Shown: positions 31,760 to 43,506 of the stretch, one piece after another | How the letters are laid out: every line of letters starts with the position of its first letter | Numbering within the stretch: position 1 is the stretch's first letter | Source of the DNA: Terriglobia bacterium | Lineage (GTDB): Bacteria; Acidobacteriota; Terriglobia; Bryobacterales; Bryobacteraceae | Direction: 5' to 3' | Length of the DNA stretch: 64,000 nucleotides | Assembly: GCA_020073365.1 (NCBI GenBank) | Contig: JAIQFL010000001.1 | Location: forward strand, 1-64,000 | Program-made: the position numbers and the translations under genes | Notes under the pieces: generated by a model | The model's database searches: none | The model's input: the letters and a program-made list of their open reading frames with translations, nothing else | Told to the model about the DNA's origin: nothing

Positions 31760-34234
31760 CTAGTTCGATCCCGCTAACCCCACCCGTCTCACCAGATCCG
31801 CAAACCGCGCGTCGCCGCGCACCGGGTCGAACAGCGGGTCCACCTTCAGGTACACCAGCCACGCCGACCGGTCGTCGTACGCTTTCTGCATCCAGTCGAA
31901 GGCCGGGTCCCTTTCTCCCAGGCCGAGATGGATCACCGCGATCCACATCGGCTGCACGTAGGTCTGCTGCGAGCGCTCCTTCAACTGATTGAGGATCGTG
32001 CGAGCCTCGCCATCCTGGTGCGACACGGCGTAAGCCTGCCCCAGCGCAGCCAGCTCGTTGGTGTCCCCCTCCGAGATCTCGAGCGCTTTGCGAAACTCCG
32101 CAATCGCTGCAGGAAATGCCGGCTTCTGCTGATACGCGCGCCCCAGATACGTGTGCGCCGGCGCGAAGTTCGGGTCCATGGCCAGCACTTTTTGGCACTG
32201 CTCGATGGCCTGGGTGTACTGGCGGGCGTAGTAGAAACGGTATCCTAACGCGAGGTTCAGCACCGGCGAGAGGGTATCCAATTGGTACGCGCGCGTCATC
32301 TCTTCCTGCGCCGGGTCGCTCCGCCCCAGTGCCATCAGGTATTCGCCATACCAGGAATGCGCGGTGGGGTAACTCGGGTTCAGTTCAATGGCCCGTTTGA
32401 ATTCTTTCTCCGCGCCGGCCCAGTCCAGATCGTGAAACCTGGCCCACCCCAGTGACGTGTGGGCTTCCGCCAGTGTGTCGTCGAGCTCCAGTGCTTTCTC
32501 CGCCGCGCCCTTCACTTTCGGCAGCACTTCGCGCGCCGGCAGCACGTTGAAATCGGCCAGCAGGGCGTACGCGTCGGCCTGCCCCGCGAATGCCAGCGCG
32601 TACCGCGAATCTTTCTGGATCGCCTGCTGAAAATAGTCGATGCTTTGCTGCAGCCCATCGAGCGTCCGCTTGTTCCATTGGTAGCGGCCCTGCAAATACA
32701 ACTGGAACGCGGCCGGATCTACGGTCTGGCGGCGATTCAGCCGCTGCTGGTCCGCGCCGGTCATCTGCAGCCGCAGTCTCTCCGAGATCTCGCGTGAGAT
32801 CTCCCCCTCGATCGCCAGCATGTCGTTCACCTTTCGCGTGTACTGGCTGCCCCAGATCTGCCGGTTTCCCCGGACGTCCACCAGTTCCGCGCTGATGGCG
32901 AACTCGTCGCCGCGACGCACCAGCCGCCCGGTCAACACCGCCCTCACCTTCAATTCGTTGCCCGACGCTTGGGGATTGACCTCTTTATTCTTGAAATGCG
33001 CCACCGCGCTGAACGACCGTACGGAGAGCTGCGGCAATTGCGACAGGTTGTTGATGATGCTTTCAGTGATGCCGTCGCTCAGGTATTCGGTGCTTTGATC
33101 CCCGCCCACATTCACGAACGGCAGCACGGCCAGAGAATCGAGCGGCTTCTCCCACAGAAATAAATACCAGGCGCCCACCGCCACCAGGAGAGCCGCCAGC
33201 ACCGCTAACGCAATAATCCGCCGGCTTCCCGGAGCCGCGGTAGCCTGGCTCGGCGAACTCGCATCATCAACCGGCGCAGCCACCGATTGGCTGCCGGAGG
33301 AAGGCCGCTCGGTTACGCTGGGAGCAGTGGCCGGCACACCCTTCGCGGTCTGCGACGAGATCCGGTTCGAACCCGTGTCGCGCTGCAGCCGCTTCAAGTC
33401 GGCCCGCAGGTCGGAAGCGTTTTGATACCGCAGGTCGCGGTTCTTCTCCAAGGCCTTGTCGATTATGCGCTCCAGCTCCGCGGACACTTCCGGACGCATA
33501 CGCGACGGCGGAACCGGCGTGCTCTGCAGGATCGCCACAAACGTCATCGCCACGCTCTTGGCTGGGAACGGCAGCACGCCCGTCACCATCTCGTACAACA
33601 CCACGCCAAAGCTGAACAGGTCGGTGCGCGCGTCCAGTTCTTCGCCACGCGCCTGCTCTGGCGACATGTATGCCACCGTCCCAATCGTCGACCCAGGACT
33701 CGTGACCAGTTCGTTCACGGCCACCGTCGCCATCTGGGAGTCCTGCGAAACATTTCCGCTGCCCCCTCCCAGCATCTTAGCCAGGCCGAAATCCAGCATC
33801 TTCACCTGGCCGCGGTTCGTCACGAAGATGTTCGCCGGCTTGATGTCCCGATGCACGATCCCGCGGCTGTGAGCTGTGTCCAGCGCATCCACCACCTGGA
33901 TGGCGATGTCCACCACCTCGTCCACTGACAGGTTCTTCTCGATGCGCGCCTTGAGCGTCTGCCCTTCCAGGCACTCCATCACCAGAAACGGACGTCCATC
34001 CGACTCGTCGATATCGTGCAGCGTGCAGATGCCGGGATGGTTCAGCGCCGAAACTGCCCGCGCTTCACGCTGGAATCGCTCCAGCGCCGAGCGGTCGCTC
34101 GCCAGTGCTTCCGGCACGAACTTCAGCGCCACGGTGCGCCCCAGGCGCAGATCTTCGGCGCGATACACCACGCCCATGCCGCCTTTGCCGAGTGTGCTAA
34201 GAATCTTGTAGTGAGAAACCGTCTTGCCGATCAC
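31760..34234 (-). CDS. Membrane Ser/Thr protein kinase with TolB-like domain and TPR repeats
   Basis: 824-residue Hanks-type receptor kinase. The kinase domain (1-~275) has [10 protein letters not shown], Lys38 in [18 protein letters not shown] and LDFGLAKML, all catalytically intact. A transmembrane helix lies at about 341-362. The extracytoplasmic part starts with a TolB/FlgO-like domain ([21 protein letters not shown]...) and ends in several TPR units (e.g. [33 protein letters not shown]). This layout is common in Acidobacteriota, where ligands and targets are mostly unknown. The gene upstream on the same strand encodes a phosphate-binding-like protein, 12 bp away. Confidence 0.93.
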
Positions 34235-36309: not shown

Positions 36310-37704
36310 ATGCAAGTGCAGTCCGGCAGTGGGGTCTATTATGCATTCATCGCGACAGTCTTCTTTATTTACTGGGCGTCGGCGGGTTCACGCCTCCTTC
36401 GATTAGCCGTCATCCTTTTCGCCAACTATCTCTTCTGCGCGCGCTACGGCTTGTTCTACGTCCTGCTGCTACCGGCCTGTTCCACGCTGGATTTCCTCAT
36501 TGGCCTGGGCCTCATGCGCTTCCAGCACGCGCCCGTCCGCAGGCTGTTGGTGGGATTCAGCATCGGCCTCAATCTCGCCCTACTGGCCGCCTCCCGTCAC
36601 ATGGGACTGTGGTTGAACCGCCACGCCACAGCCGCTTCCGGCTGGGACTGGGTTTTCCCCCTGGGCCTCTCGTTCTACATTTTTCAATCCCTCACGTACA
36701 CCATTGACCTGTATCGGCGCGACGGCGAGGGGACTTCGAGCCTCTTGAGTTATCTCTCGGCGGTTACTTTTTTCCCGACCGTTCAGGCCGGGCCCATCAC
36801 GCGCGTAACCGAGCTCATCAAGCAATTCTCCGCCCGCCCAGCGCTGAGCCGGGTGGATGGCGGCCGGGCCTTTTTTCTGATCGGCATGGGCCTTTTGAAG
36901 AAAGCCCTGATTGCCGATTATCTGGCCGAGAGCCTCGTGAACCGGGTCTTCGATACTCCGAAACTGTACAGCGGCGCCGAGGCCCTGCTCGCTGTTTATG
37001 CCTATTCGCTGCAGTTGTACTACGACTTTTCCGGCTACACCGACATCGCCCGCGGCACGGCGATGCTGCTGGGGATCAGGCTGCCGATCAATTTCGACCG
37101 GCCGTACCTGTCCGCCAACCTCACGGAGTTCTGGCGGCGGTGGCACATCACGTTTTCCAACTGGCTGCGGGACTACCTGTTTTTCTCGCTTCCCGGCGCC
37201 CGCTCGAAGGTCATGCCGTATATCAACCTGGTCATCACGATGGTGTTGGGAGGCCTCTGGCACGGCGTCGCCTGGACCTTCGCGATCTGGGGTCTTCTCC
37301 ACGGCATGGCGCTGGCCGGTACACGCGCGTGGTTCGCCTGGCATGGCCGTCCGAAGCAGCCCGTCAGCCCCGTGCGACATGCCGTGGCGGTCTTCTGCAC
37401 GTACCAGTTCGTCTGTCTCACCTGGGTCTTCTTCCGCGCGGGCAGCCTGGCGGATGCTCTGGCTATGCTGGGCCGTATTGCCTCCCTGACCATCGGCTTC
37501 GAAAACATCCCGGCCCTGCTCGCGGTCGTCCTGCTGCTCGCGGCCGCCGCCTTGTTCGTCAAAAAGACCTGGTACACGCGCGCTATGGAAACCTTCGCGG
37601 CCTGCCCGTTCTACGTCCATGCGGCGACGCTGCTGGCGGTAGCGGTGGCCATCCAACTTCTGGGAGGGCGCGGCGGTACCCCGTTCGTCTACTCCCGGTT
37701 TTAG
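36310..37704 (+). CDS. MBOAT-family O-acyltransferase (AlgI/DltB-like)
   Basis: 464-residue multi-pass membrane acyltransferase that would carry acyl groups from a cytoplasmic donor across the membrane. It has about ten hydrophobic segments and the family core: PLGLSFYIFQSLTYTIDLYRR, FFPTVQAGPITR, YDFSGYTDIARG, NLTEFWRRWHITFSNWLRDY (His279) and GGLWHGVAWTFAIWG with the catalytic-type His318. AlgI passes acetyl for alginate; DltB passes D-alanine from a carrier protein. Here the next genes are two SGNH proteins, an acyl carrier protein and a KAS III homologue at 3, 4, -26 and 2 bp spacing, so an acyl-ACP donor is the natural inference. Confidence 0.93.
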   Translation: MQVQSGSGVYYAFIATVFFIYWASAGSRLLRLAVILFANYLFCARYGLFYVLLLPACSTLDFLIGLGLMRFQHAPVRRLLVGFSIGLNLALLAASRHMGLWLNRHATAASGWDWVFPLGLSFYIFQSLTYTIDLYRRDGEGTSSLLSYLSAVTFFPTVQAGPITRVTELIKQFSARPALSRVDGGRAFFLIGMGLLKKALIADYLAESLVNRVFDTPKLYSGAEALLAVYAYSLQLYYDFSGYTDIARGTAMLLGIRLPINFDRPYLSANLTEFWRRWHITFSNWLRDYLFFSLPGARSKVMPYINLVITMVLGGLWHGVAWTFAIWGLLHGMALAGTRAWFAWHGRPKQPVSPVRHAVAVFCTYQFVCLTWVFFRAGSLADALAMLGRIASLTIGFENIPALLAVVLLLAAAALFVKKTWYTRAMETFAACPFYVHAATLLAVAVAIQLLGGRGGTPFVYSRF

Positions 37705-37707
37705 ACC

Positions 37708-39096
37708 ATGCAAGGCTTCCCCCTCCAAACCGGTCTGACCATTGCGACGCTTGGCCTGCTCCTGGCGGGAACGCGATTGGTGGCGCCTGCGATCAAGGGT
37801 CCCGAGCCCGCGCAGTTCACCGCCATCGTGGATTTTGCGCCGGAGCGGGTCCCCCTCAGTCCCTTGAGCCGCCGCAGCGAGCCAGAGCCGCCGCCCGTTT
37901 CGAGAATCAAGCTCCGGGCGACTGCCACTCTGCTCGACGATTCCGCCGGCGCGTTGGACCATTTCTACCAGGCGCTCTGGCGGACTGAGAAGCGGGAGCA
38001 AGACGCGGCGAGCCAGAGCCCCGCAGTCACCCATATCGTCCACTACGGCGACTCGCCTACCACCGCGGACCTGATTACCGGAGACATACGCAGCCAGTTG
38101 CAGAAGCGCTTCGGCGACGCCGGCCACGGCTTTGTCCTGGTGGCCAAGCCGTGGGCCTGGTATCAACACACGGGCGTGCAGCTTTCGGCGTCGGGCTGGC
38201 AGATGTCGCCGGCCAGCCACTTCGAGGCGCATGACGGCATGTTCGGCCTGGGCGGCGTGAGCTTCGTCGGCTCCGGATCGGCTCACAGCAACATCGTCTT
38301 TCAGAATAAAGGCCACTCCGCATTCGAAGTATGGTTCCTCCATCAACCCGGGGGTGGAGTGTTCACGCTCACGGCGGACGGGCGAACTCTGGGGCGTATC
38401 GACACGGCCGGAGATTCGAAGTCGCCAGGTTTCGCCGCCTTCCGCGCCGAGCTCCCCGCGGACGAGTTGGAAATCCGCGTGGAGCAAGGAAGCGTCCGTC
38501 TGTTTGGGCTCTCGGCGGAGAAGACCGGGCCAGGCGTGGTCTACGACAGCCTGGGGCTCAATGGCGCATCCATCACCGTTCTGTCGCGCATGTTCAACCA
38601 GGCTCACTGGGCCGAGGAGCTGAGCCACCGCCATCCCGACCTGGTGATCGTCAACTACGGAACCAACGAGGCGGACTTTGCGGCCTTCGTCGACCGTCAA
38701 TACGAGAAGGAACTGCGGGAAGCCATCCGGCGCATTCACGCCGCTGTGCCGGGTGCTTCGGTCCTGGTGATGGGCCCTATGGACCGCGGTCAGCGGGTTG
38801 GCGGTGGCGACGTTGAAACCATGCCGACCATTCCGCGCATCGTCGAGGTCCAGAAGCGTGTCGCGAAGGAGACGGGCTGCGGCTTCTTTGACACGTTCAC
38901 GGCCATGGGCGGCGAAGGCACTATGGCGCGCTGGTACGCCGCTCAGCCGCGCCTGGTGTCGGCGGACTTCATCCACCCCTATCCGGCGGGCGGTAAAATG
39001 ATCGCGACCATTTTCACGAAGGAGGTCGCCGCCGGGCTCAACCGCTTCAAATTGCGACAGACGGTCCAAAATCGGATCACAGGCGCGGTACGCTAG
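37708..39096 (+). CDS. SGNH/GDSL-type esterase/acyltransferase, copy 1
   Basis: 462-residue protein with an N-terminal hydrophobic anchor (~8-27), placing the rest in the periplasm. SGNH landmarks: GDSPTTAD (nucleophile Ser116), FGLGGVSFVG (Gly block), IVNYGTNEADF (Asn block) and DFIHPYPAGG (Asp420, His423 as the DxxH dyad). A beta-rich insert between blocks I and III resembles a carbohydrate-binding-like fold and is also seen in the next gene. Such enzymes finish O-acylation of polymers (AlgJ/AlgX, DltD-like roles) or remove acyl groups. Only 3 bp follow the MBOAT stop. Confidence 0.88.
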   Translation: MQGFPLQTGLTIATLGLLLAGTRLVAPAIKGPEPAQFTAIVDFAPERVPLSPLSRRSEPEPPPVSRIKLRATATLLDDSAGALDHFYQALWRTEKREQDAASQSPAVTHIVHYGDSPTTADLITGDIRSQLQKRFGDAGHGFVLVAKPWAWYQHTGVQLSASGWQMSPASHFEAHDGMFGLGGVSFVGSGSAHSNIVFQNKGHSAFEVWFLHQPGGGVFTLTADGRTLGRIDTAGDSKSPGFAAFRAELPADELEIRVEQGSVRLFGLSAEKTGPGVVYDSLGLNGASITVLSRMFNQAHWAEELSHRHPDLVIVNYGTNEADFAAFVDRQYEKELREAIRRIHAAVPGASVLVMGPMDRGQRVGGGDVETMPTIPRIVEVQKRVAKETGCGFFDTFTAMGGEGTMARWYAAQPRLVSADFIHPYPAGGKMIATIFTKEVAAGLNRFKLRQTVQNRITGAVR

Positions 39097-39100
39097 AAGA

Positions 39101-40432
39101 ATGCGACTGTGGCCCGGAGTGGTAACCGGAATGGTCGCGGCTGGTACGCTGCTTCTATTGGTTACCCCTTTCGAAGGCGCCACCAAGAAAAAGACGACAC
39201 GCCGCGCCGCCCCGCCGTCTCCCAAGATCAGTCCCGCCGTCCGCGCGGCCTCCCTGCGGAAGGTGGAGGACTATCTCGAAGAGTCGACGCGGACGTTCGC
39301 CCAGCCCGGCGCTCTGGTGCCGGTGTTTGAGCAACTCCTCCGGCTCGGCTCGGAACCCAACAAGACCCCGGTCCACATTCTGCATTTCGGCGACTCCCAC
39401 ACCGCGGCCGACGATTGGACGGGCGGATTGCGCGACCTGTTCAAGGAGCGGTTCGGAGACGGCGGATCCGGCTTCTCGCTTGCCGGGCACCCCTTTCTGG
39501 GCTACCGGCGCTTCGATGCACGCGGTGGTGGAACCAGCGGCTGGCAAAGCCAGGGCTTTCGCTCCGCTGCGGGCGACGGATATTTCGGACTCGGCGGGGT
39601 CAGCATTTCGACCGAGCGCGCCGGCGAGTCGGTCTATATCGACTCCGAATGCGATTTCCTCGAAATAGAATACCTGCAGCAACCCGGCGGCGGCGAACTG
39701 GCGCTTTACGATTCCGATCAGCGTCTGGAAGACTTTTCCACGGACGGAGAGCTCGCCCCCGGCTTCGTCCGTTACCAGACTCCTCCCGGACCGCACCGCT
39801 TCACGCTGCGCACGCTGAGCTCGCGTCCTGTCCGGCTTTTTGGCTGGGTGGCCGACAAGAGCGCGGGAGTCACTTACGAGGCCCTGGGCATCAATGGCGC
39901 GGAAGCCTCCGTGATGCTTCGCTGGGACGAGAATATGTTGGCCACTTACTTGCAACGTCGTAGTCCAGGACTGATTGTGCTGGCATACGGTACCAACGAA
40001 GCGAGCGATCCGAACTGGAATTCCGAGAGCTACCAGGCGATGTTTTCGGCTCTGCTCCAGCGGCTCCGCCGCGAGGCCCCGGCTGCGTCGATCCTGGTGC
40101 TCGGTCCCACCGACCGATGGTACAGGTATCGGGGCGTCCTGCGCCCGTTGCCCGGTATCGACTACATCATTGCGGCCCAGCAGGACGCCTGCCGCGAGAA
40201 TGCGTGCGCTTATTGGAATACCCGCGAGCGCATGGGCGGCAAGGGTTCCATGCGCGCGTGGGTATCCGCCGGTCTCGGCCAAATCGACTATGTTCACTTC
40301 ACGTCGGCCGGATACCGCCGCCTGGCCGCCGTGTTATTTGGGGATATCCTGCAGCAGTATCAGACATACAAGAAGACGCGCCTGGAGATAGCGGATCCGG
40401 TTTCCCATGGACAAGCGCACCAAGATCGTTAG
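39101..40432 (+). CDS. SGNH/GDSL-type esterase/acyltransferase, copy 2
   Basis: 443-residue paralogue of the preceding gene. An N-terminal membrane anchor (VTGMVAAGTLLLLVT) is followed by a basic stretch KKKTTRR. SGNH blocks: HFGDSHTAAD (Ser99), GYFGLGGVSIST, LAYGTNEASD and DYVHFTSAGYRRLA (Asp396, His399). The catalytic triad is intact, so both copies could be active; one may transfer and the other edit or hydrolyse. The first 24 bp of the carrier-protein gene overlap the end of this one, a sign of tight coupling. Confidence 0.88.
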   Translation: MRLWPGVVTGMVAAGTLLLLVTPFEGATKKKTTRRAAPPSPKISPAVRAASLRKVEDYLEESTRTFAQPGALVPVFEQLLRLGSEPNKTPVHILHFGDSHTAADDWTGGLRDLFKERFGDGGSGFSLAGHPFLGYRRFDARGGGTSGWQSQGFRSAAGDGYFGLGGVSISTERAGESVYIDSECDFLEIEYLQQPGGGELALYDSDQRLEDFSTDGELAPGFVRYQTPPGPHRFTLRTLSSRPVRLFGWVADKSAGVTYEALGINGAEASVMLRWDENMLATYLQRRSPGLIVLAYGTNEASDPNWNSESYQAMFSALLQRLRREAPAASILVLGPTDRWYRYRGVLRPLPGIDYIIAAQQDACRENACAYWNTRERMGGKGSMRAWVSAGLGQIDYVHFTSAGYRRLAAVLFGDILQQYQTYKKTRLEIADPVSHGQAHQDR

Positions 40433-40640
40433 CATCCTCCAGCGCCTCGCCGAAAAGCCCATCGACCCCGCGCCCGACGAATCGCTCTTCGAGTCCGGCC
40501 TCCTGGATTCATTCACTCTCACTGACTTGGTGACTGCCTTGGAATCGGAGTTTGGGATTCAAATCCCCGACTCCGACCTCACGCCGCGGAAATTCGATTC
40601 CATCGCGCGCATCGAGGCTTACGTCCAAAGCCGGTCCTGA
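40407..40640 (+). CDS. Acyl carrier protein
   Basis: 77-residue stand-alone carrier protein. GLLDSFTLTDLV contains the phosphopantetheine site Ser35 in the DSF form (DSL in fatty-acid ACP). The C-terminus IEAYVQSRS is helix 4. The protein is less acidic than housekeeping ACPs and is closer in feel to DltC-type carriers. It starts inside the end of the SGNH gene (26-bp overlap), and the KAS III gene follows 2 bp later. Likely role: shuttle for the acyl group moved by the MBOAT protein. A phosphopantetheinyl transferase must be encoded elsewhere. Confidence 0.93.
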   Translation: MDKRTKIVSILQRLAEKPIDPAPDESLFESGLLDSFTLTDLVTALESEFGIQIPDSDLTPRKFDSIARIEAYVQSRS

Positions 40641-40642
40641 CC

Positions 40643-41596
40643 ATGGCGTACCTGTGCGCGCTCGGCTGTTACCTGCCCCCACGGGTAGTGGACAACTCCG
40701 AGATCGCTGCGCTGGTGGGAGCCGATCCGGCCTGGATCTTGCAGGCGACCGGCATCGTCGAGCGGCGGTTCGCCGCGCCGGAGGAATCCGTCGCGACTCT
40801 CGGCACACGAGCGGCCAAGGACTGTCTGGAATCGGCGGGGGTCAGCGCGGCCGAAGTCGGCCTGATCCTCGTGTCCTGCGGGTCGAGCGAGCGCCGCTTT
40901 CCCGGACCCGCCACGGAGATCGCCGCAGCCTTAGGGGCTCAGGGTATGCCGGCAGGCACGCCGGCGATCGACCTGCCGCTGGCCAGTGTCGGCTCGCTGT
41001 TCGGTCTCGCCCTGGCAGCCAGTCTCTGCCACGATTACCGCAACGTGCTGATCATTGGGACGGAGATCATGTCGCGCGTGGTCCGCCTGGACCCAACCGG
41101 ACGCGACACCGCAATCCTCTTTGGCGACGGCGCAGGCGCTTGCCTGGTCAGCGCAGAGACGGGTTTCGCCCGCATCGTCGATTCGGTGATGCATAGCGAC
41201 GGGGAATTCGCGGGCGCCCTCCGCCTGGATCTCGATTCACCGCTCCACATGGAAGGCCGGACGATCATCCTGCAGGCGTCGCGAAAGCTGCCGCGCGCGA
41301 TTACCGAAGTGCTGGACCGCAATCACACCAAGGCCGGCGAGGTGGGCACGTTCGTAATGCACCAGGCGAATCTGAACCTGATTACGCGCGTGGCGAAGGC
41401 TCTGGGCGTCCCGGAGTCGAAATTCTTCTGCAACGTCGAGCGATACGGCAACACGTCGTCAGCGTCGTTGTTGATTGCCGCTGCCGAGTGGTGGCGGGAA
41501 TCGGGGCAGCGAATAGAAGCCCCGATCGTCTTCGCGGCTTTCGGCGCGGGGTTGAATTGGGGCGCGCTGCTGGCGGTGCCGGTGGCGCCCGAGTAG
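40643..41596 (+). CDS. KAS III/FabH-like protein with Ser in place of catalytic Cys
   Basis: 317-residue thiolase-fold protein of FabH type and length. Alignment by eye to FabH puts Ser115 (DLPLASVG) exactly where the nucleophilic Cys lies in DVAAACAG. The other two residues are kept: His240 in MHQAN and Asn270 in YGNTSSAS. FGDGAGACLV is the usual conserved loop. A few KAS III-like enzymes, such as DpsC of daunorubicin synthesis, use Ser and act as acyltransferases, so this protein more likely loads or transfers an acyl group on the neighbouring carrier protein than starts fatty-acid synthesis. An inactive scaffold role is the alternative. Confidence 0.88.
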   Translation: MAYLCALGCYLPPRVVDNSEIAALVGADPAWILQATGIVERRFAAPEESVATLGTRAAKDCLESAGVSAAEVGLILVSCGSSERRFPGPATEIAAALGAQGMPAGTPAIDLPLASVGSLFGLALAASLCHDYRNVLIIGTEIMSRVVRLDPTGRDTAILFGDGAGACLVSAETGFARIVDSVMHSDGEFAGALRLDLDSPLHMEGRTIILQASRKLPRAITEVLDRNHTKAGEVGTFVMHQANLNLITRVAKALGVPESKFFCNVERYGNTSSASLLIAAAEWWRESGQRIEAPIVFAAFGAGLNWGALLAVPVAPE

Positions 41597-41652
41597 TGGG
41601 TCCATTTCCGAAAAAGGGAAGGCGATTCGCGATATGCTCGTTGGAGCGCGAA

Positions 41653-43506
41653 ATGCAAAACGCCGAACTCTTCGCCAAAAGGATGCTTCCGATGACACCC
41701 ATCTCGAACAACGTGGTGTGCCGGCGGCTGGCCGCTGCCGGCTTACTCTTCTTCACCCTCGACTGGACCGCCGCCGCGCAAGGTATCAATGTAACGCAAA
41801 GGCTTGAGGGGTTCGATGCCTACATGGCCAAGACCCTGAAGGACTGGAATGCGCCGGGCGTCGGCGTGGGCATCGTCGTCAATGACAAGCTGGTTTTCGC
41901 CAAGGGCTACGGCTTCCGGGACTATGAGAAGAAACTCCCATTCACCCCCGCCACCATGAGCCCCATCGCGTCGAACACGAAACTGTTCACCGCGGTTGCC
42001 GCGGGCATGCTGGTGGAGGAAGGGAAGCTGTCATGGGACAAGCCGGTGCGCCAATCCGTCCCGGCCATTCGCTTTTACAACGACCAGCTCAACGACACCG
42101 TGACCCTGCGCGACATGCTATCGCACCGCACCGGCATCACGCGGCACGACACCATCTGGTACAAATCCGATTTCACCCGCAAAGAACTGTTCGAGAAGGT
42201 AGTTTACCTGGAGCCGCAGGAGCCCATGCGGGAGACCTTCCTGTACAACAACCTGATGTTCGCGGCGGTCGGGTATCTGATTGAACTGCAGTCCGGGAAA
42301 ACCTGGGAGCAGTTTGTCAAAGAGAGGATCTTTGACCCGCTCCACATGAACTCCACCAGTTACACCGTTTCAGACATGTTGAAGCGTCTGGAATTCGGCG
42401 TCGGGTTTACCGAGAGGCGCGATTCTTTTGAGCTTTACAGAATTCCATACTATGAGGACATAACGGGCGTGGCACCTTGCGGAGCCATAGTTTCCAACAT
42501 TGAAGATATGTCCCATTGGCTGATTGCGCTGATGAACCAGGGGAAATATGACGGCAAACAGGTGCTGCCGGCGGCAGTGTTGAAGGCCACCCTGCAGCCG
42601 GCCATCGCCCTGCCTAACACGGGTCTCGAAACCCGGGGTTGGTCCGAGATCCTCAATGCGGCTTACGGCATGGGGCGGCAGACCGCATCCTACCGGGGCC
42701 ACCTCATCACTTTTCACGGCGGTGATTTACCTGGCTTCCACACGCAGGTTTCGTTCATGCCGCAGGACCACATCGGCGTCATGGTCTTTGAAATTGGGAA
42801 TCACAGCCAGCCACTTTACAACATCGTCAGCTATAACGTGTATGAACGATTGCTGGGCATGGATCAGACGCCCTGGAGTGAACGTCAGCTCGATATTCGG
42901 TTGAAGAATAAGAAGGCGGGGACCGAAGCGCGAACGAAAGCCAACGAGGGCCGTGTTCCGGATACGAAGCCGTCCCACGCCCTCTCGGCTTACGCCGGCG
43001 CCTACGAGAACCCCGCTTACGGCGTGATGACCATCGGCCTGAAGGACAACCAGCTTCAGTTCGACTTTCATAAGATGCGATTCCCCATGACTCACTTCCA
43101 CTATGATCGCTTCGACACACCCGATGACGAGCAGGATGGCAAGCGGTCGGTGAACTTCCGAACGGATCCGCAAGGCGATATCGACCAGGCCGTGATGTCC
43201 CTGGATGAAGCGGAAGCCGTATTCGTCCGTAAGCCAGACACCATTGACCCGAAGTTGATGTCTCAGCTCGCGGGTGACTACGAAACGCCCGGCGGCGTGA
43301 AGATTCAGGTCGCGCTGGCGCCGGGCGGGCGCTTGTCGCTCGTTCTGCCCGGCCAGCCCGTGATTGCGTTGAACCAGGTGAAGGGCCTGACATTCCGGAC
43401 GCCGCAGTTCTCCGATGAGACCCTCGAGTTTGTGGTGCAGGACGGCCAGGTGAAGGGACTTAAACAAAAGAGCCCGTCGGGCGAGTTCACGTTCCCGAAG
43501 AAGTAG
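41653..43506 (+). CDS. Exported serine hydrolase, class C beta-lactamase/DD-peptidase family
   Basis: 617-residue protein, cleaved or anchored by the leader RRLAAAGLLFFTLDWTAAAQ. The beta-lactamase-fold domain (~50-410) shows SNTK (Ser107, Lys110), YNN (Tyr198, Asn200) and HGG (355-357), the three class C elements. A C-terminal ~170-residue beta-rich domain (SAYAGAYENPAYGVM...) is frequent in these carbohydrate- or peptide-acting hydrolases. Substrate unknown; true beta-lactamase activity is unlikely. ATG 41653 has GGAG six bases upstream. It follows the acylation operon by 56 bp on the same strand and could act on the same envelope material. Confidence 0.87.
   Translation: MQNAELFAKRMLPMTPISNNVVCRRLAAAGLLFFTLDWTAAAQGINVTQRLEGFDAYMAKTLKDWNAPGVGVGIVVNDKLVFAKGYGFRDYEKKLPFTPATMSPIASNTKLFTAVAAGMLVEEGKLSWDKPVRQSVPAIRFYNDQLNDTVTLRDMLSHRTGITRHDTIWYKSDFTRKELFEKVVYLEPQEPMRETFLYNNLMFAAVGYLIELQSGKTWEQFVKERIFDPLHMNSTSYTVSDMLKRLEFGVGFTERRDSFELYRIPYYEDITGVAPCGAIVSNIEDMSHWLIALMNQGKYDGKQVLPAAVLKATLQPAIALPNTGLETRGWSEILNAAYGMGRQTASYRGHLITFHGGDLPGFHTQVSFMPQDHIGVMVFEIGNHSQPLYNIVSYNVYERLLGMDQTPWSERQLDIRLKNKKAGTEARTKANEGRVPDTKPSHALSAYAGAYENPAYGVMTIGLKDNQLQFDFHKMRFPMTHFHYDRFDTPDDEQDGKRSVNFRTDPQGDIDQAVMSLDEAEAVFVRKPDTIDPKLMSQLAGDYETPGGVKIQVALAPGGRLSLVLPGQPVIALNQVKGLTFRTPQFSDETLEFVVQDGQVKGLKQKSPSGEFTFPKK

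Follow-up and report, generated by a model that had tools for sequence, protein, structure and literature searches.

The acyl groups that decorate wall and surface polymers govern resistance to lysozyme, autolysis and the properties of biofilms, and the supply of the activated group across the membrane is understood in a few systems only. In the Pat/Ape pathway (OAP), the tyrosine of the FXYXXF motif of the MBOAT protein PatA is acetylated from acetyl-CoA and then donates the group to PatB; the Dlt pathway uses a separate DltX and a carrier protein (PMC12148441). DltC is the one carrier known to feed an MBOAT, and a 2025 paper describes the MBOAT/SGNH pathways other than Dlt as having no carrier protein (PMC12148441). 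OAP clusters with two Ape1-type genes plus pat have been described as well (PMC1199599). Here we report on a five-gene operon of a Terriglobia bacterium (assembly GCA_020073365.1, contig JAIQFL010000001.1), which combines an MBOAT and two SGNH proteins with an acyl carrier protein (ACP) and a homologue of 3-ketoacyl-ACP synthase III (KAS III). The gene set suggests MBOAT/SGNH envelope acylation with a new loading step, that is, an undescribed way of charging surface-decoration machinery. The stretch of DNA analysed, referred to as the window, comprises 64,000 nucleotides (bases 1–64000 of a 97-kb contig in a 12.1-Mb assembly); its relatives are Acidobacteriota, with Bryobacterales nearest. The operon consists of the following genes:

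36310..37704, + strand, MBOAT acyltransferase/channel (464 aa; PF03062, E=1.7e-25)
37708..39096, + strand, SGNH1, predicted exported/anchored, Ape1-like (462 aa; PF13472, Lipase_GDSL_2, E=1.1e-18)
39101..40432, + strand, SGNH2, second predicted exported Ape1-like SGNH protein (443 aa; PF13472, Lipase_GDSL_2, E=4.5e-12)
40407..40640, + strand, DltC-like ACP (77 aa; PF00550, PP-binding, E=2.4e-11)
40643..41596, + strand, KAS III homologue (PF08545/PF08541; ACP_syn_III_C, E=2.3e-23)

The five open reading frames (ORFs), their strand and their Pfam matches bear out the gene set and the spacing of 3, 4, -26 and 2 bp given by an earlier reading of the DNA made without database searches (hereafter the sequence-only reading); the 3' end of SGNH2 and the ACP gene share 26 bp.

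Like OAP clusters, the operon links an MBOAT with a C-terminal FXYXXF motif and a catalytic histidine to predicted exported SGNH proteins, but the described OAP clusters contain neither a carrier protein nor a ketosynthase, whereas the operon has both. The conserved dedicated carrier argues against the OAP mode of donor supply, which draws on acetyl-CoA directly. With Dlt the operon shares an MBOAT, a DltC-like carrier and SGNH proteins, the nearest solved relatives of carrier and MBOAT being DltC and DltB, respectively; in contrast to Dlt, it lacks DltA and has a KAS III homologue in its place. Moreover, the shuttle motif is fused to the operon MBOAT, whereas Dlt has the DltX microprotein and a DltB without fused motif; no separate DltX microprotein gene was found in the operon. 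The SGNH proteins are Ape1-like, and there is no sign of D-alanine as the acyl group. The sequence-only reading had likened the set to dlt, with MBOAT, carrier protein and SGNH as the core of that system. This likeness holds for the carrier protein, while the built-in FXYXXF motif and the Ape1-like SGNH proteins place the remainder nearer to Pat/Ape. With neither DltA nor a separate DltX, the locus does not belong to Dlt, and its fit to OAP is incomplete due to the presence of carrier and ketosynthase. Judged from its protein sequences, the apparatus looks like a PatA/Ape1-type machine to which a DltC-like carrier delivers the acyl group and in which a KAS III homologue stands in for DltA. In the literature searched, which excluded preprints and most subscription journals, we found no description of this five-gene set, in agreement with what the sequence-only reading had supposed, and no matches for an MBOAT combined with FabH or a ketosynthase, or for MBOAT in Acidobacteria.

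The KAS III protein was searched against 396 Acidobacteriota genomes, and 13 genomes besides that of the window matched at E<=1e-50; one of these matches (G111) is an ordinary Cys-type FabH without partner genes. A scan of a contig collection yielded at least 27 clear family members with 45–84% identity, followed by a drop to ordinary FabH at 36–38%. Contig records overlapping genome hits were counted once (L053 = G187, L058 = G202, L052 = G103). The operon in L058 belongs to Granulicella rosea DSM 18704, a soil bacterium that can be cultivated. Records titled Bordetella parapertussis (L053) and Verrucomicrobia (L057) bear Acidobacteriota-type operon genes, and their titles look mislabelled or misbinned. 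As the sequence-only reading had proposed to check by a neighbourhood search, the combination of MBOAT, ACP and KAS III recurs across Acidobacteriota, many of them from soil: at least 18 loci other than the window have MBOAT, SGNH1, SGNH2, ACP and KAS III in this collinear arrangement. Two further families (L030, L031) also have the complete set of five clustered, with KAS III-ACP encoded on the other strand. The genes are for the most part closely spaced, and 7 of 16 relative loci show the 26-bp overlap of SGNH2 and ACP; in Granulicella-like genomes (L023, L024, L052), about 450–480 bp lie between ACP and KAS III. A run of masked (N) bases falls within this interval in L024/L052. No sixth gene, an adenylating enzyme included, recurs beside the five in the relatives' loci.

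In several genomes, ACP-KAS III is located apart from the MBOAT gene. All eight genomes of this type that were checked (G187, G289, and those of L049, L050, L051, L061, L064 and L065) contain an operon-type MBOAT with adjoining SGNH1 elsewhere; in that of L050 the MBOAT-SGNH1 pair is near a contig end, and the separation rests on the halves being on different contigs. SGNH2 has remained with ACP-KAS III in the L061 and L064 loci. As for loci truncated by a contig end, MBOAT and SGNH1 were found in the genome of L059, and a search for the MBOAT in the genome of L040 found none. According to the sequence-only reading, KAS III and ACP genes lying away from the MBOAT/SGNH genes in related genomes would speak against the proposed system. 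Such an arrangement indeed exists in several lineages, but it does not break the link between the halves; rather, the link is strengthened, since both persist in the same genome when ACP and KAS III lie apart. In G187, the unlinked ACP-KAS III pair (L025, 8050-9730) adjoins two genes, one FliW-like and the other flagellin-like and very long, which may be chance.

Among the 396 genomes, 11 contain both KAS III and an operon-type MBOAT, 2 only the KAS III, 5 only the MBOAT, and 378 neither (Fisher p=4e-16, uncorrected for relatedness). The two KAS III-only genomes (G100, G136) have a more distant MBOAT near the ACP-KAS pair or elsewhere. Since the gene order is conserved and an operon-type MBOAT is retained in every genome checked with an unlinked ACP-KAS III, the view that the five genes form one functional module is supported; mere chance neighbourhood is ruled out by the conserved order in many distant loci and the co-occurrence after unlinking. 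The operon is a clear and widely conserved exception to the carrier-free rule for non-Dlt MBOAT/SGNH systems, and it names a specific enzyme for loading. In G100 alone, a same-family ACP-KAS III (G100:C294, L032 / L166) is situated inside an apparent glycan (sugar/nonulosonate) cluster with NeuB-like, UDP-GlcNAc-2-epimerase-like, nucleotidyltransferase and aminotransferase-like genes and a different MBOAT a few kb away; this cluster may give a clue to the target polymer of that lineage.

The C-terminus of the MBOAT, FVYSRF (F459-x-Y461-x-x-F464), fits the FXYXXF acyl-shuttle motif, which is present in all 32 MBOAT sequences inspected and invariant in a 15-row alignment; F459, Y461 and F464 as well as His279 and His318 are invariant. 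In the structural model, confidence is low for the 11 C-terminal residues, which include the motif. The nearest solved structure is DltB, and the protein reaches 178 of the 375 bits needed for TIGR04091. Operon-type MBOATs are set apart in the tree from the ordinary MBOATs that their genomes also encode; the ordinary group is supported at 100/99 and also takes in two Holophagae-type MBOATs near ACP-KAS. The sole other MBOAT of the window's genome (G000:C649:28258-29118, L037) is weakly related to the operon MBOAT.

The two SGNH proteins are 32% identical. Their catalytic residues, Ser116, Asn320, Asp420 and His423 of SGNH1 and Ser99, Asn299, Asp396 and His399 of SGNH2, are invariant in 30 and 34 orthologues, respectively. 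The best PDB match of both is 4k3u, listed as GDSL-like lipase (E=2.8e-21 for SGNH1 and E=3.8e-28 for SGNH2), which we take to be Ape1 of Neisseria. Both proteins have glycine at the apparent block II position (NGA motif), and a PDB search returned no solved PatB structure for either of them. PatB has an atypical block II residue (PMC12148441) and lacks this glycine. Because of the glycine at this position, neither SGNH protein appears PatB-like.

The presumed phosphopantetheine attachment site of the ACP, Ser35 in a DSF motif (D34-S35-F36), is invariant. Its best PDB matches are DltC proteins (E ~2e-7), with scores below the NCBIfam DltC cut-offs. No adenylation gene was found in the operon or recurrently nearby, and no protein of the genome exceeds the TIGR01734 cut-off for DltA, the best reaching 258 of 560 bits and all candidates being on other contigs. 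This bears out the absence of an adenylating DltA stated by the sequence-only reading, and charging of the ACP by a DltA encoded elsewhere was rejected on the same scores, a rejection which covers DltA and not a generic ligase. As no sixth gene or adenylating enzyme recurs with the set, the enzyme that most obviously suggests itself as the putative loader of the ACP is the KAS III homologue.

The nucleophile of the KAS III homologue is Ser115 (...PLASVGS...), at the position where KAS III enzymes have cysteine. Serine occurs in 39 of 39 family members, cysteine in 57 of 57 FabH-like outgroup sequences, and His240 and Asn270 are invariant in both groups. The AlphaFold model (pLDDT 92) has the fold of FabH (TM ~0.92), and the enzyme also resembles FabH in overall length. 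Compared with E. coli FabH, in contrast, the Ser family has lost Thr28 and Lys257, carries hydrophobic residues instead of Arg36 and mostly Leu instead of Lys214, and has replaced Phe213 by Ile (38/39) and Arg249 by Asn (38/39); the latter residue, Asn245, is located five positions after the catalytic histidine, where DpsC has its Asp. We take Thr28, Arg36 and Phe213 to be CoA contacts of FabH and Lys214, Arg249 and Lys257 to be its ACP-docking contacts. In the phylogenetic tree, which was rooted at midpoint and whose outgroup was picked by similarity to the query, with other KAS III branches unsampled, the Ser family of 39 sequences is supported at 100/99. Together with three Cys-type operon enzymes, it separates from the 57 FabH-like sequences at 100/97. 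A main role as a mere back-up of FabH was ruled out in view of the separate clade, the changed binding residues and the other KAS III genes in the genome.

The three Cys-type operon enzymes are from MBOAT-only genomes (G063, G075, G339) with the operon order SGNH2-MBOAT-SGNH1-ACP-KAS III. Their KAS III proteins are diverged (32–36% identity) and have cysteine at the nucleophile position, while they show the same Ile, Leu and Asn at FabH positions 213, 214 and 249. In a further MBOAT-only genome (G291), the ACP is part of the operon and a KAS III of this Cys type is encoded at another place, so that related Cys-type enzymes, in the operon or unlinked, are present in four of the five MBOAT-only genomes; in the fifth (G193), where the MBOAT contig is truncated, only ordinary FabH was found. 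Most simply, the operon-type KAS III enzymes are a single family within which a Cys/Ser switch took place. Hence, the serine emphasized by the sequence-only reading is real, but the system does not require it, as in sister lineages a Cys-type KAS III accompanies the same genes; the idea that serine is the key to the system was discarded for this reason.

DpsC, a Ser-type relative of KAS III, acylates itself and then transfers the group to its ACP; FabH-type priming enzymes have not been seen to act in this way (PMC12664062). The operon enzyme shares the KAS III fold and the serine nucleophile with the DpsC-type priming ketosynthases of daunorubicin polyketide synthase and relatives. However, DpsC has a Ser-His-Asp triad and acts in polyketide synthesis, whereas the MBOAT-associated enzyme has a Ser-His-Asn set, carries a further Asn where DpsC has its Asp, and is far closer in sequence to FabH (E ~1e-47) than to DpsC (E=8e-5).

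From the observed gene set, its conservation and co-occurrence, the catalytic residues and the shuttle motif, we infer the chemical steps, the acyl group and the polymer as follows. The operon may encode a transmembrane O-acylation machine for an envelope polymer which is fed by a dedicated ACP, loaded by transacylation, and not by free acyl-CoA; we assign this reading a rough probability of 0.52. In the cytoplasm, the KAS III homologue would take a short acyl group, acetyl being the simplest, onto Ser115 and pass it to the phosphopantetheine of the operon ACP, so that its role would be acyl transfer and not condensation. The acyl-ACP would dock on the MBOAT, and the acyl group would be moved to Tyr461 of the FXYXXF motif on the periplasmic side. 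One Ape1-like SGNH protein would accept the group on its serine and transfer it to the polymer, by analogy peptidoglycan or another glycan, and the second would transfer or remove it. That ACP and KAS III supply the operon MBOAT by some chemistry is very probable; for transacylation as the loading chemistry, the odds are balanced. The Cys/Ser alternation within one system fits transacylation, because both nucleophiles support it. Peptidoglycan is a first guess at the polymer, at about even odds, based on the kinship to Ape1 and the lack of polymer genes nearby.

Tentatively, and with the balance somewhat against it, the operon might represent a third route of feeding, besides direct use of acyl-CoA (PatA) and adenylation (Dlt), in which a ketosynthase-fold acyl-loader charges a dedicated carrier, possibly from acyl-ACP of fatty acid synthesis. 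In that case, the group placed on the surface may be one other than acetate, and fatty acid metabolism would be coupled to surface decoration; a core fatty-acid enzyme would have taken on the role of an acyltransferase, with a switch between Cys and Ser within a single system.

Several points weigh against the reading of a machine fed by an ACP that is loaded by transacylation. The loss of the residues assumed to contact CoA and ACP in FabH would leave both a CoA donor and this particular ACP partner unassured; of the donors offered by the sequence-only reading, acyl-CoA or acyl-ACP, the former is thus less certain than had been stated. The analogy to DpsC is imperfect, since the operon enzyme keeps the Asn of FabH in its Ser-His-Asn triad. 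The ACP-KAS pair goes with a different type of MBOAT in G100 and G136. Finally, PatA takes acetyl-CoA directly (PMC12148441), so that a carrier is not indispensable to such an MBOAT.

A different origin of the acyl group is conceivable without changing the rest of the pathway: like a KSQ domain, the KAS III homologue could decarboxylate malonyl-ACP to acetyl-ACP rather than transfer the group from CoA. Whereas the cysteine is replaced, His240 and Asn270, to which we ascribe decarboxylation in FabH, do not vary, and the presumed CoA contacts are lost. There is a precedent in Proteobacteria, where acetyl-ACP from malonyl-ACP decarboxylases feeds the synthesis of envelope precursors (PMC8666670). 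However, the nucleophile position is always occupied by Ser or Cys and never by Gln or Ala, suggesting that a nucleophile is retained, and the Cys-type sister enzymes belong to the same set of genes. We consider decarboxylation improbable.

Slightly less probable again is that the enzyme still condenses, placing a 3-oxoacyl group, perhaps reduced by housekeeping FabG, on the dedicated ACP, so that the polymer would receive a C4 or longer group and not acetate. The retained FabH-like His and Asn, the fold of FabH and the ordinary KAS triad of the Cys-type members are compatible with condensation, and an ACP reserved for this purpose would keep such groups out of fatty acid synthesis. Nevertheless, serine poorly replaces cysteine in Claisen condensation, the operon has no recurrent gene for a reductase or dehydratase, and the residues presumed to dock generic ACP are lost, even though malonyl-ACP would be a co-substrate.

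In the least probable of these explanations, MBOAT and SGNH1/2 would carry out ordinary O-acetylation of Pat/Ape type with acetyl-CoA, and ACP-KAS III, which is a separable unit, would be a co-resident lipid or metabolite module; direct use of acetyl-CoA by PatA, with the same motif (PMC12148441), would agree with this, whereas the conserved gene order and overlaps, the co-occurrence that outlasts unlinking, the closer relation of the ACP to DltC than to fatty-acid ACP, and the separate branch that operon-type MBOATs form beside the ordinary MBOATs of their genomes do not. A role in defence was dismissed, as PADLOC returned no match.

Two genes of the window outside the operon are also of note. 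Downstream of the KAS III gene, a beta-lactamase-fold serine hydrolase (PF00144 plus DUF3471) is encoded on the + strand at 41488-43506; the ORF as listed overlaps KAS III, its true start probably being later, and its position beside the operon is not kept in relatives. A protein kinase (PF00069) fused to TPR repeats, with no relation to the operon, is encoded on the - strand at 31760-34234.

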